Of a stretch of DNA of 64,000 nucleotides, positions 3,224 to 58,790 are shown in pieces (position 1 is the first letter of the stretch; every line of letters begins with the position of its first letter). The DNA is from Deroplatys truncata (Eukaryota > Arthropoda > Insecta > Mantodea > Mantidae): the NCBI GenBank assembly GCA_030765065.1, contig CM060990.1, positions 663,040,618 to 663,104,617 of the forward strand, written 5' to 3'. The notes beneath the pieces are model-generated. The model was not told the DNA's origin, searched no databases, and worked only from the letters and a program-made list of their open reading frames with translations. A program made the translations under genes and the position numbers.

Positions 3224-3725
3224 AGAAACTGACGTACGATTTATTGCTATAGGCTTATGCAATACTATTACTCCCTGATGCGCAGGATTTGGTATGGCAT
3301 GTGCAGAAATTCTGTAATCCTGCTGAAGAAGTCTTGATCTGAAAGAAACTATTGGGGGAGACATTTGTATGCTTTTATGGAAACAAGTGTAGCACTTTAT
3401 GACATATAATTAACCGGTTTGTTACAATTAAGAACATGCCAGAAGATAGGTAATTTTTTTTTTTTTTTTTTTTTTTTTTGCTTTTGTTGTAACGTTAATT
3501 TGAGTAACGAATTTTAATAATTATTTTCGCAAATTATTTACAAGTACTGTTGTCTGAAATTATAAACACATATAAGCCTCTCAAACGTGATAATTACGTT
3601 GGTAATATAAATTAGATCAAGTGATGCTATGCTGAAACAAACGAAGCAGGAAATAAAACATACTCCTGTATAATAAGAAATCCTGAGTCCCTTGGAGAAT
3701 CTTTGTTACAAAAGAATTGAAGAAC
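3224..3725. other. Non-coding, with a poly-T run
   Basis: About 28 consecutive T at 3452-3479. No coding or structured element recognised otherwise. Confidence 0.5.
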
Positions 3726-3726
3726 A

Positions 3727-4246
3727 GAGCGGGGTGGCTCATGCAGTAACGTCTGTGGCCCGTATTCGGGAGGTCCCGTGATCAGATCCCGTAGGCTGAC
3801 CAATCTGATTGGGGTTTATTTCCGGTTTCCCTCAGCCAAGGTAAATGCCAGATTGGATACTTAATACCGTGACCCAAAGTTCCCCTTAAGCCTAAAACAA
3901 TAGTAAACATGAAAAATAGATGGTAATAACGAATACTCTGCCATCTATCCACAGATAAAGAAAGTAGGTCGACTGAACGACACCCTAATGCCATCTGTCC
4001 GACACGTGCAGAAGCAGAAATACAGTTGCCTTGCACTAAGGTCTGTGGATACGTATTGAAGCTGTCATCTGCCCGGCACAAGTAGAATCAGAGATACAGT
4101 TGCCTAGCGCTAAGGCCTCCGTGTATGCCTGGCGAGGCACGATGGCATGACACCTAGAAAGCTAACTGTTCGCCACAAACCGAGCCACGAGGTATCTCTA
4201 ACGGATCCATCACGATATGACCACGTAGTTAAAGCGACTGGAAGTA
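3727..4246 (+). mobile_element. SINE, undeleted relative of the 22-24 kb array element
   Basis: Head: gagcggggtggctcatgcag (A-box region) and a tRNA-like gtgatcagatcccg, then gaccaatctgattgggg and a ttccctcagcc motif. The body carries paired blocks with the text gatacagttgcct and ctgtccgacacgtgcagaag. The reverse complement of 3860-4240 lines up block by block with both flanks of the tandem array at 22148-24473, including the 3' end around ttaaagcgact. It is therefore a single-copy form of the element that gave rise to that array. Confidence 0.75.
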
Positions 4247-4712
4247 AATAGGCCAAAAGATTGAAGTGGGGGAATAAACCAAATAGTTCTGATTATTTAA
4301 GCTCTAAACTGGGCCAGTTCTAGGTTTTTAACAATGGAATTAGTTATCGAGGCATTAACTTTTTTTCAATTAGGGATATTTTTTCAGTCAACGGTATATA
4401 CATTTTATATAATTAAATAGACGTTCTTAGAAGATGAAGATTATAAAAACAGCTTTGCTTTAAATTGGAACAAAGGATATTCAAACGTCAGTTTGTATGT
4501 TGTAAACCTTACAGTGGAAACAAAACTCAAAATAATTCAAGGCAAAAAATAACTCCACATCTTGCATTTAAATATTGCGCTACACCATGTCACATAATCC
4601 ATTTTAGTCACAAGTATTTTGCCATTTTAGCCAAAACTTGTCTCCATATCCATTAACAATTATGTAGGCTTGTGTACATTTACATTCTAAATTCAAGAAT
4701 ATTCTAATAGTA
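4247..4712. other. No recognised feature
   Basis: AT-rich sequence with no motif, repeat end or persuasive reading frame. Confidence 0.5.
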
Positions 4713-8909: not shown

Positions 8910-9330
8910 TAGGGATGGGCAGAAAATAACCAAACGGTTACTTTGTAACGGTTACCAAAGTAACGAATACAAAGTAACTAGTTAATAACGGTTACCAAAA
9001 TAACGATTACAAAGTAACTAGTTACCAAATTAACGAATACAAAGTAACTAGTTATCCAATAACGGTTATCAAAGTAACGATTACGAAGTAACTAGTTACC
9101 CAGTAACGGCTACCACAGAAACGGCTACAAAGTAACTACTTGCCCAATAACGGTTACCAAAGTAACGATTACGAAGTAGCTAGTTACCCAATAACGGTTA
9201 CCAAAGTAACTGGTTACGCAATAACGGCTACCAAAGTAACGACACGACACAATGTAACTGGTTACCAATAACACTAACAAAGTAATGAATACAAAGTAAC
9301 CAGTTACCCAATAACGGTTACCAACCTGGC
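8910..9330 (+). mobile_element. hAT-like terminus with AACGGTTAC-rich subterminal tandem array
   Basis: Starts tagggatgggcagaaaataa, which is the inverse of the right end of the hAT-like element at 34407. It is followed by roughly nine imperfect ~40-45-bp units built from aacggttaccaaagtaacga and tacaaagtaactagttac. No matching right terminus was found downstream, so this is a truncated or rearranged copy. The repeat wording is shared with 30230-30370 and 33310-34390. Confidence 0.6.
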
Positions 9331-22068: not shown

Positions 22069-22147
22069 ACCACACACATTTTAAAAATGTGTATTAGATT
22101 ACAGATTTTTTATTATATATGCATAGATTTGATTTTTTTAACTCTTT

Positions 22148-24473
22148 TATTTTACATCGCTTTAACTCCTTGGTCATATCGCGACGGATCTGTTGGTGGA
22201 TAACTCTTAGAACAATATGTGATGGACAGTTAGCCTTCTAGGTCTCATCCCTGTAACCTCCCGCTCCGTCACGTGTCACAGAGACCCTAGCACATAGCTA
22301 CCGAATCTTCTGCTTCGTGCCGTGCAGACGACATTAGGGTGCCGTCCAGTCCAACCGCCCCCCCCATATAAAGGCGGACAATTGGCCTTCTAGATATCAT
22401 CCCTATAACCACCTGCTTCATGCCGTGCAGACGACATTAGGGTGCCGTCCAGTCTAACTGCCCCCCCCATATAAAGGCGGACAATTGGCCTTCTAGATCT
22501 CATCCCTATAACCACCTGCTTCGTGCCGTGCAGACGACATTAGGGTGCCGTCCAGTCCAACCGCCCCCCCCCATATAAAGGCGGACAATTGGCCTTCTAG
22601 ATCTCATCCCTATAACCACCTGCTTCATGCCGTGCAGACGACATTAGGGTGCCGTCCAGTCTAACTGCCCCCCCCATATAAAGGCGGACAATTGGCCTTC
22701 TAGATCTCATCCCTATAACCACCTGCTTCGTGCCGTGCAGACGACATTAGGGTGCCGTCCAGTCCAACCGCCCCCCCCCATATAAAGGCGGACAATTGGC
22801 CTTCTAGATCTCATCCCTATAACCACCTGCTTCATGCCGTGCAGATGGCATTAGGGTGCCGTCCAGTCCAACCGCCCCCCCCCATATAAAGGCGGACAGT
22901 TAGCCTTCTAGATCTCATCCCTATAACCACCTGCTTCATGTCATGCAGACGACATTAGGGTGCCGTCCAGTCCAACCGCCCCCCCCCATATAAAGGCGGA
23001 CAGTTAGCCTTCTAGATCTCATCCCTATAACCACCTGCTTCGTGCCGTGCAGACGACATTAGGGTGCCGTCCAGTCCAACCGCCCCCCCCCACATAAAGG
23101 CGGACAGTTAGCCTTCTAGATCTCATCCCTATAACCACCTGCTTCATGTCATGCAGACGACATTAGGGTGCCGTCCAGTCCAACCGCACCCCCCATATAA
23201 AGGCGGACAGTTAGCCTTCTAGATCTCATCCCTATAACCACCTGCTTCGTGCCGTGCAGACGACATTAGGGTGCCGTCCAGTCCAACCGCCCCCCATATA
23301 AAGGCGGACAGTTAGCCTTCTAGATCTCATCCCTATAACCACCTGCTTCATGTCATGCAGACGACATTAGGGTGCCGTCCAGTCCAACCGCCCCCCCCAT
23401 ATAAAGGCGGACAGTTAGCCTTCTAGATCTCATCCCTATAACCACCTGCTTCATGCCATGCAGATGGCATTAGGGTGCCGTCCAGTCCAACCGCCCCCCC
23501 CATATAAAGGCGGACAATTGGCCTTCTAGATCTCATCCCTATAACCACCTGCTTCGTGCCGTGCAGACGACATTAGGGTGCCGTCCAGTCCAACCGCCAC
23601 CCCCATATAAAGGCGGACAGTTAGCCTTCTAGATCTCATCCCTATAACCACCTGCTTCATGCCATGCAGATGGCATTAGGGTGCCGTCCAGTCCAAACGC
23701 CACCCCATATAAAGGCGGACAGTTAGCCTTCTAGATCTCATCCCTATAACCACCTGCTTCAGTCATGCAGATGGCATTAGGGTGCCGTCCAGTCCAACCG
23801 CCACCCCCATATAAAGGCGGACAGTTAGCCTTCTAGATCTCATCCCTATAACCACCTGCTTCAGTCATGCAGATGGCATTAGGGTGCCGTCCAGTCTAAC
23901 CGCCGCCCCCATATAAAGGCGGACAGTTAGCCTTCTAGATCTCATCCCTATAACCACCTGCTTCATGCCATGCAGATGGCATTAGGGTGCCGTCCAGTCC
24001 AACCGCCCCCCCCATATAAAGGCGGACAGTTAGCCTTCTAGATCTCATCCCTATAACCACCTGCTTCATGCCGTGCAGATGGCATTAGGGTGTCGTCCAG
24101 TCTAACCGCCGCCCTCACACAGGAAGGCGGACAGTTAGCCTTCTAGGTCTCATCCCTGGAAATGCCATCTTGCTTCGTCACATGCCCACAGAGACCCCCA
24201 GCGCATAGCAGCCGGATCTTCTGCTTCGTGCCGTGCAGGTGGCGTTAGGGTGCCGTCCAGTCTTAACTGCTTACATTGTCTGTAGATAGATGGCATAGCA
24301 TTCGCTATTACCACTTATTTTTCATTTTACCATTGTTTTAAACTTAAGGTGGAACTTTGAGTCGTGGTATTAAATATCCAATCCGGTATTTACCTTGGCG
24401 ACTGAGGAAAACCACGAAAAAACCTCAGAGAGATTGGTAGGCTCACGAGATGTGAACCCGGGACCTCCCAAAT
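22148..24473 (-). mobile_element. SINE whose internal segment is tandemly amplified
   Basis: The outer parts are a single SINE on the minus strand. At the right, 24290-24473 carries the linker and B-box side (gtgaacccgggacctccc) and gtatttaccttggcgac. At the left, 22148-22200 carries the 3' end (gctttaactccttggtcata). Both flanks match the 520-bp SINE at 3727-4246. The A-box end of the head is missing. Between the flanks the body is repeated about 19 times. Confidence 0.75.
22270..24270. repeat. Minisatellite array, ~103-bp unit, about 19 copies
   Basis: The unit starts ggcggacagttagccttcta and contains catccctataaccacctg, cttcatgccgtgcaga, cattagggtgccgtccag and a poly-C stretch before atataaag. 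Successive start points are 102-105 bases apart (22373, 22476, 22580, and so on), so copies are closely similar. The first and last copies hold about 55-60 extra bases (with cacagagaccc and gcgcatagc/agcacatagc) that every internal copy lacks. Confidence 0.95.
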
Positions 24474-25861: not shown

Positions 25862-26612
25862 CTTACATAAAAAAACCTAACCTAAGGCTAACCTTCCGTG
25901 AATTCAGAAACGTAAGCATATATATAAAAAAAGCTAAACCTAACCTAACCTCCCGTGATTCAGAAACCTAAGCTTAGGAACGCACGCTCGCTTCGCTCCC
26001 GTGCTTTGATGTAACCACTGGTAACTAATTAAAACAAGCTTATATAAAAAAAAACTAAACCTAACCTAACTTAACCTCCCGTGAACCAGAAACCTAAGCT
26101 TAGGAATTCAGAAATGTAATTCATGAATTCAGAAACGTGAGCTTATATAAAAAAAACTAAACCTAACCTAACCTCCCGTGAACCAGAAACCTAAGCTTAG
26201 GAATTCGGAAACGTAAGCTTATATAAAAAAAAGCTAAACCTAACCTAACCTCCCGTGAACCAGAAACCTAAGCTTAAAAACGCACGCTCATTTCGCTCGC
26301 GTGGTTTGATGTAACCACTGGTAACTAATTAAAACAAGCTTATATAAAAAAAAACTAAACCTAACCTAACCTCCCGTGAACCAGAAACCTAAGTTTAGGA
26401 ATTCAGAAACGTAAGCTTATAAAAAAAAGCTAAACCTAACCTAACCTCCCGTGAACCAGAAACCTAAGTTTAGGAATTCAGAAACGTAAGCTTATAAAAA
26501 AAAGCTAAACCTAACCTAACCTCGCGTGAACCAGAAACCTAAGCTTATATAAAAAAAAAACTAACCTAAACCTAACCTTCCGTGAATTCAGAAACGTAAG
26601 GTTATATAAGAT
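25862..26612. repeat. Satellite-like tandem repeat with CCTAA motifs
   Basis: About nine copies of a 65-90-bp unit: taaacctaacctaacctccc, gtgaaccagaaacctaagct, taggaattcagaaacgtaag, and cttatataaaaaaaa. A longer variant adding cgcacgctcgcttcgctc and gtaaccactggtaactaatt occurs twice, at 25980 and 26280, giving a ~300-bp higher-order step. Each unit contains two to three CCTAA pentamers, the insect telomeric word, but not long pure runs. Confidence 0.9.
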
Positions 26613-28168: not shown

Positions 28169-28440
28169 ACTATGAAGCCGGGACTTGAAGTATTTGTGAC
28201 ATTGTAAGTCGCCATTGGGGCAGATCATCTCAAAATGACTTGAGATCACCTTGGTTTACCGGGGAAAATGCGAGGCAGTTGGGGAATTTATTGTCGTACC
28301 GGCGTGTTGCCATGGTAGCTTAGTTGGTTAGAGCACCCGGATGGAAACCGGAAGATCCGTGATTCAAATCCTGACTATGGTATTGAATTTTTCAGTCTGA
28401 TTCTACCTTTCCATCCTTGTCCTACACACGGCTTGCGTGG
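28169..28440 (+). mobile_element. SINE of the TAGCTCAGTTGG type (family D)
   Basis: Blocks in order: actatgaagccgggacttga, cattgtaagtcgccattggg, ctcaaaatgacttgagatc, ggtttaccggggaaaatg, then the tRNA-like head with tggtagcttagttggttaga and gattcaaatcctgac, ending gaatttttcagtctgattc. The head keeps A- and B-box wording. It is in inverted orientation to 26995-27286. Confidence 0.8.
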
Positions 28441-52639: not shown

Positions 52640-53050
52640 CATTCATCTGCTTCCTACTTGCCGAGCAAGGAATGACACTGTAAGCTCAAAATCCGCGGTT
52701 CAAATGTCGTCTATGGCATTGAACTTTTCGGTCTGATTCTATCTTTCCTATTTTTAGCCTACACACCTTTTGTGTGAAAGAATAATTAATACTTATGATA
52801 TTGTAAGTAGCTTTTGGGGTATTTTATCTCAAAATGTATTTGATAACGCCTTGTGGTTTACCGAAAACTGAGTCATTGGCGAATTTAATGTGTTTCGTCA
52901 TGAAGTCATGGTAGCTCAGTTGGATAGAGCAGGGGAACGGTAAGCCGAAGATCCTGGTTGAAATCCCGGCTATGACATTCAATTTTTCAGTGTGATTCTA
53001 GCTTTCCAACTTTAGCTGCACACGGATTGTCTGGAATAACAATTAATTAT
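52640..53050 (+). mobile_element. SINE family D, tandem partial copies
   Basis: A B-box half (cgcggttcaaatgtcg) and the tattttatctcaaaatg and ggtttaccgaaaactgag blocks are followed by a complete head, tggtagctcagttggataga and ggttgaaatcccggctat, and then the tail fragment again (cattcaatttttcagtg). The unit therefore repeats with a period of about 250 bases. Confidence 0.7.
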
Positions 53051-58436: not shown

Positions 58437-58790
58437 CTGAAAAATTCAATGCCATAGCCGGGATTTGAACCACGGATCTCCCGGTCTCCGTCCGGTTGCT
58501 CTAATCACTGAGCCTCCATGGCAGCATGCTGGCACGACACTAAATACTCCAGCTGATTCGCGTTTTTCCCGGTAAACCACAAGGAGATCTCAAATTGTAT
58601 TGAGATGACGTGGTTCAAATCCCGGCTATGGCATTGAATTTTTCAGTCGCATGATTCTACCTTTCCAACCCTGGCTTGTGTGGAAGAACAATTAATTTCA
58701 TTAATTGACCTAATAGTGGTCGAAACTATGAAGCCCGAGACTTAAAGTACTTACAGTATTGTAAGTCGCCATTGGGGTATGTCAATACTA
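58437..58790. mobile_element. SINE family D, inverted composite
   Basis: 58437-58610 is a minus-strand copy (ccatagccgggatttgaacc, gctctaatcactgagcctcc, ggtaaaccacaaggagatct). It is followed at once by a plus-strand fragment: gtggttcaaatcccggctat, ggcattgaatttttcag, gaaactatgaagcccgagac and gtaagtcgccattggggta. The two copies are head-to-head/tail-to-tail around tcaaattgtattgagatga, so the block is nearly self-complementary over its heads. Confidence 0.7.

Follow-up and report, generated by a model that had tools for sequence, protein, structure and literature searches.

Introduction

The beginnings of satellite DNAs are mostly inferred from finished arrays. The array considered here lies inside a copy of a tRNA-type short interspersed element (SINE), in a 64,000-nucleotide stretch of the genome of the mantis Deroplatys truncata that we call the window (C16:663040618-663104617). 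Its closest described counterparts are the SINE-derived satellites (sSats) of squamate reptiles, which have longer terminal units, alternating subvariants and a subtelomeric preference (Vassetzky et al. 2023; PMC10702118). Most sSats keep one end of the SINE, copies with both termini being called an uncommon variant, and the terms TSD (target-site duplication) and target site do not appear in the main text of that paper (PMC10702118). Ape retrotransposons built around a variable number of tandem repeats (VNTR-composite elements, SVA and LAVA) have conserved end units, a variable middle and growth at the DNA level (PMC4432496), and oyster Helentrons (Cg_HINE) carry satellite-like arrays (PMC7492417). 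Older cases of SINE-derived repeats are listed in a review (PMC9659126), among them an expanded mouse VNTR that has its origin in SINE B1 (Bois et al. 1998) and is given there as a 6-bp repeat, (GGCAGA)n. German cockroach SINEs are 306-658 bp long and have TSDs of 10-15 bp (PMC9191728).

We report that the window array belongs to a SINE subfamily built on a three-unit seed, which consists of a first long unit (F), a short unit (S) and a last long unit (Z). We put at about 85% the probability that a duplication and a deletion took place once, in a master SINE, that retroposition spread the resulting seed, and that S then expanded locally.

Results

Structure of the window copy

Both flanks of the window array match the plain (array-free) SINE at 3727-4246 and keep that SINE's own order (Table 1), as a first-pass annotation of this stretch had claimed. 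The two BLASTN matches, both on the minus strand, cover 24473-24218 (E = 6e-55) and 22251-22157 (95 bp, E = 3e-14). Tandem Repeats Finder (TRF) reports a single array at 22310-24157 with a period of 103, 17.9 copies and 95% matches, and the same array also at period 207. Split at a conserved anchor, the array resolves into 19 tandem units, that is F, 17 S and Z. The two long units retain a block without counterpart in 17 of the 17 internal units, 57 bp in F (160 versus 103 bp) and ~49 bp by alignment in Z, and the plain SINE has a related but longer block at that place. The extra block of the end units had been noted beforehand, and the derivation of the short unit from a long one by deletion had been proposed, which alignment bears out.

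The S units of the window have a mean identity of 0.952 to one another and are 81-86% identical to F. Two variants alternate in units 9-13 and 15-18, and units two apart are more alike than in random orders (p = 0.0005); set against adjacent units alone, their excess does not reach significance (p = 0.17). Locus-private variants and the two-unit alternation support the earlier proposal that the short unit was amplified, by its estimate about 17-fold, at this locus. That the array length is an assembly artefact is scarcely credible, since the window units differ mutually (~95% identity) and the same design is present at independent loci with different flanks, even though near-identical units are hard to assemble and exact copy numbers may be off.

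Having lost the promoter part at its 5' end, the window copy is dead as a SINE. Its A-rich tail reaches about 22142, and truncation of the 5' end at about 24473 leaves it without an A box. A remnant of the SINE head does lie at 24258-24473, which takes in the 24290-24473 where the linker and B-box side had been placed, but a B box was searched for in the window copy and none was found within one mismatch. A run of up to nine G stands at the window junction, where two of the F-S-Z founder copies described below read GGGAGCGG. A hairpin at the S-S junction was considered as a driver of expansion and dropped, since the stem of ~10 bp predicted in 3 of 3 folded units comes with whole-unit z values of -1.3 to -1.5 that are not significant.

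Table 1. Features of the array-bearing SINE copy and of the plain SINE in the window
Feature	Position	Strand	Basis
Array-bearing tRNA-SINE copy, 5'-truncated	22142..24473	-	both array flanks align in order to SINE 3727-4246; tail read from sequence
SINE head and linker remnant (B-box side)	24258..24473	-	79% to SINE positions 38-288 over 257 bp; match extends into unit F
Unit F, first long unit, 160 bp	24098..24257	-	anchor split and alignment; head+F near-full-length at 40/40 scored candidates including the window
17 short units S, 101-104 bp, partly pair-alternating (units 9-13, 15-18)	22347..24097	-	TRF, anchor split, unit comparison
Unit Z, last long unit	22225..22346	-	anchor split and alignment; Z+tail near-full-length at 40/40 scored candidates including the window
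SINE 3' region and A-rich tail	22142..22224	-	77% to SINE positions 418-511; match extends into unit Z
Plain SINE with TSD 3710-3722 / 4255-4266 (AAAAGAATTGAAG / AAAAGATTGAAG)	3727..4254	+	read from sequence
74-bp internal duplication of plain SINE: 3989-4044 and 4063-4118	3989..4118	+	80% identity over 56 bp

Distribution of the subfamily

Searching the 4.29-Gb genome with two S units gave 1986 first-look candidates. Scores were computed for 40 of them, and the listed rows were clustered into loci. Among the matches listed, arrays are present at at least 35 loci besides the window, and 34 of these 35 were fetched for inspection of their flanks. SINE sequence adjoins the array in 33 of the 34, on both sides in 26 and on one side in 7, some of the one-sided pieces being cut by the fetch boundary. 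At the remaining locus (L068) the 3-kb piece fetched is filled with units throughout and shows neither SINE head nor tail. The tandem units are homologous to part of the SINE and the longer terminal units continue into it, which is the arrangement that defines an sSat. The first-pass annotation had proposed that many loci with arrays inside the same SINE would mean mobilised or recurrent expansion; we find many, and read them as a mobilised seed plus, by inference, recurrent expansion. It had also named flanks that fail to align with the SINE, or array units abundant outside any SINE context, as observations that would contradict it, and on both counts the alignments and flanks just described show the reverse. 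Invasion or conversion of SINE copies by a satellite that already existed is very improbable: S units of different loci are ~90% alike, as this explanation would have it, but all three unit types have their homologue in the body of array-free plain SINEs, and 0 of the 34 fetched loci could be shown to be SINE-free.

Units per locus range from 3 to at least 38 in the counts of a unit caller that overlooks F and Z units in some cases where the anchor has changed. The longest array among the loci fetched has 38 units in a 6.1-kb piece cut on one side (L041), and at least four middle monomers are present at several loci (17 in the window, 11 in L042 and 26 in L043). Queries with head+F and with Z+tail gave near-full-length matches in the best 40 of 4039 and the best 40 of 1555 candidates, respectively, with identities of 92-95% and 95-97% for the 39 matches other than the window in each set. 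The three query sets barely overlap and together hold at least 112 distinct subfamily loci besides the window. Exact pattern scans of viral and prokaryote contig collections gave 0 matches, as expected for an animal genome.

Two loci show recurrence on a larger scale. At L051 (C4:47453300-47458800) two of the intervals that separate its three SINE tails measure 1208 and 2341 bp, the array plus tail recurring, and at L041 (C12:21415300-21421400) a Z-type unit recurs within the array 11 units (~1.19 kb) apart.

Proposed origin and spread of the seed

Alignment with plain SINEs identifies F and Z as two diverged copies of the SINE body, which would have been made by tandem duplication, and S as a Z-type unit minus ~49 bp. 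Imperfect direct repeats bound this loss (ACGAAGCAG / ACGGAGCGG, alike at 7 of 9 positions), and the F-S junction appears to contain a filler of ~18 bp. Plain SINEs are without a second unit and have a 74-bp duplication in the same region instead (in the plain SINE of the window at positions 263-318 and 337-392 in SINE numbering). The plain SINE of the window is ~77% identical to 40 scored genome copies, the best 40 of 10174 first-look candidates. In one further plain copy (C2:274098349-274098898) overlapping matches are offset by 75 bp, as they would be if the 74-bp repeat were present three times or more; tandem growth would then have taken place a second time, separately, within this SINE family. 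Because plain SINEs carry the 74-bp duplication, and the C2 copy possibly a third repeat, the body of this SINE seems prone to tandem duplication.

Four lines of evidence argue for origin in a single master followed by retroposition. First, the 16 array-bearing heads form one clade against 7 plain heads. Second, the 13 copies that retain both ends show TSDs when taken together (p = 5e-5); the 8 of 21 loci without an end, the window among them, stood outside this test. Third, F units are conserved from locus to locus, as are Z units. Fourth, minimal F-S-Z copies exist. We picked 11 founder-type loci without use of the S unit, 9 from the 39 head+F matches and 2 from the 39 Z+tail matches, and their forms were F-S-Z in four cases, FS in two, and FZ, FZSZ, FS3, FS9Z and FS11 in one each, so that intermediates span 2 to 12 units. 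Most Z+tail matches had been suspected to be single-unit SINEs, as few had neighbouring matches; this was dropped when both copies fetched proved to be F-S-Z. As for the promoter, an A box within one mismatch is present in 14 of the 16 array heads, mostly starting at position 9, and a B box in 13 of the 16, mostly starting at position 53.

Many other loci share the F, the deletion, the junctions and the Z of the window copy, and this, together with the minimal copies, contradicts the earlier placement of the duplication and deletion at the window locus itself. Local amplification with two-unit alternation is visible in the window, but with the array-bearing heads on one branch there is very little chance that the short unit arose and was amplified solely inside the window copy.

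Probable local growth of the short units

Of 264 S units at 21 loci, 213 have their nearest neighbour within the same locus, against 7% expected by chance, and mean S-unit identity is 0.929 within loci and 0.897 between loci. Units at the same position of different loci are no closer to each other (first S in 0 of 15 loci, last S in 1 of 15), and unit similarity is unrelated to head similarity (r = -0.05, 120 locus pairs). These own-locus neighbours, with no position effect and no correlation with the heads, indicate that S multiplied or was homogenised after insertion, separately at each locus. The locus data alone do not separate these two processes; the F-S-Z founders point to multiplication, which we favour.

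The same comparisons bear on whether the long arrays were themselves retroposed from one or more masters with many S units, the short copies being contractions. We consider this unlikely. Intact ends are found in copies with up to 32 S units (L040, L043), and both junction types are present in most of the 21 loci, the first junction of a long array being of one type and the later ones mostly of another. However, F-S-Z copies already have both junction types, of which one stands at F-S and the other at S-Z. This layout therefore explains the junction order of long arrays and makes a long master unnecessary, and we withdrew a many-unit master that had first been inferred from the junction pattern. 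The clustering of units by locus and their independence of position and head likewise speak against retroposed long arrays.

Several observations count against a single master with a retroposed seed and local expansion. No TSD is recognisable at the window copy (its score, 5, is the same as the mean against other loci), single-locus TSDs are poor in L042, L043, L050 and L057, and some locus flanks share other repeats mutually in the TSD test. At L039 and L058 the fetched piece extends past the array, yet no SINE head is recognised. Many array-bearing heads, that of the window copy (24258-24473, minus strand) being an example, keep a run of 6-7 T (GAGGTTTTTTCGTGG) at about head position 88, just past the tRNA-like part, and a T6 run there would be expected to stop RNA polymerase III, though the transcript would be 0.7 kb or more. 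The founder-type loci number only 11 and were drawn from the top-scoring matches, not at random. Finally, homogeneity does not clearly increase with array length (rho = 0.35, p = 0.14, 19 loci).

Chromosomal position

The mean relative distance to the nearest chromosome end is 0.142 for arrays (35 loci), 0.185 for head+F (39) and 0.221 for Z+tail (39). Arrays are closer to ends than head+F and Z+tail loci together (p = 0.014) and than plain SINEs (p = 0.0003), in comparisons of best-scoring matches rather than random samples and, for plain SINEs, with one small-contig match dropped. The head+F loci are also end-biased (Kolmogorov-Smirnov p = 0.0006) and the Z+tail loci are not (p = 0.17). We had considered an end bias peculiar to long arrays and dropped it, since head+F loci are biased too and arrays differ from the rest only at the p = 0.014 given above.

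C16, which contains the window, is 707 Mb long and makes up 16% of the genome. None of the 112 other subfamily loci, taken from best-scoring matches, is on C16, where 18.5 would be expected by length (chance 1.7e-9), and 6 of the 40 scored plain SINEs, which are older, are on it, one of them within the window. C16 may be a sex chromosome, or may differ in age or activity. Overall we lean, with some reserve, toward the broader view that the subfamily spreads an identical three-unit seed, and that satellite birth recurs independently at many loci, more often toward chromosome ends and with C16 almost free of it.

Other repeats in the window

Two further tandem arrays are present at 8945-9324 (mixed periods of ~30-74 bp) and 25867-26609 (~56-77 bp). 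Rfam tRNA matches at 28309-28382 (+), 52905-52977 (+) and 58450-58522 (-) lie in stretches that match one another, and because of this likeness they are probably heads of another tRNA-SINE family and not tRNA genes.

Discussion

We propose that a body segment of the master SINE was duplicated in tandem and that the copies diverged to F and Z. A Z-type unit would then have lost ~49 bp between direct repeats, giving S and a master of the form head-F-S-Z-tail. For the family as a whole, the single clade of heads, the TSDs as a group and the conserved order of F, S and Z show that this element was retroposed to many sites. At some of these, as locus-private variants suggest, unequal exchange or slippage would have added S units, at times in pairs, and the window copy with its F, 17 S and Z would be one such local expansion. 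One genome would thus hold, as separate insertions, the likely starting element (F-S-Z), intermediates, and long arrays of 38 units or more. If this is true, these are replicate satellite births from a known starting state that can be compared across copies of one seed. Comparing loci, individuals and related species could yield measures of how fast arrays grow, of how position affects them and of the way in which they grow, whether by two-unit steps, hybrid units or junction changes.

A literature search, with subscription journals mostly outside its reach, found no description of arrays like these in a tRNA-SINE of any invertebrate. The novelty seems to lie in three features taken together, namely a tRNA-SINE that carries a three-unit seed as it moves, the occurrence of the bare seed form, and expansion from it at many loci. 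The mouse B1 VNTR is likewise a minisatellite from a SINE, and differs in having a 6-bp repeat where the mantis has a 103-bp unit in retroposed copies (PMC9659126). As in Cg_HINE, a mobile element scatters short tandem arrays over the genome, although Cg_HINE elements are DNA transposons and the mantis elements are retroposons (PMC7492417). With SVA and LAVA there is a likeness only, that of a retroposon with a central tandem domain, and we claim no membership: those elements are composites of Alu, VNTR and other parts that are mobilised by LINE1, whereas here a tRNA-SINE has units from its own body (PMC4432496). The squamate sSats come closest, since there too a tRNA-SINE has supplied the tandem units, the end units are longer and run on into SINE sequence, and subvariants alternate (PMC10702118). 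Their long arrays prefer chromosome ends, to which the p = 0.014 for mantis arrays against other subfamily loci, again among best-scoring matches, may be compared (PMC10702118). The mantis copies are unlike most sSats in having both SINE ends in 26 of 34 loci, target duplications that can be tested and a three-unit seed form (PMC10702118).
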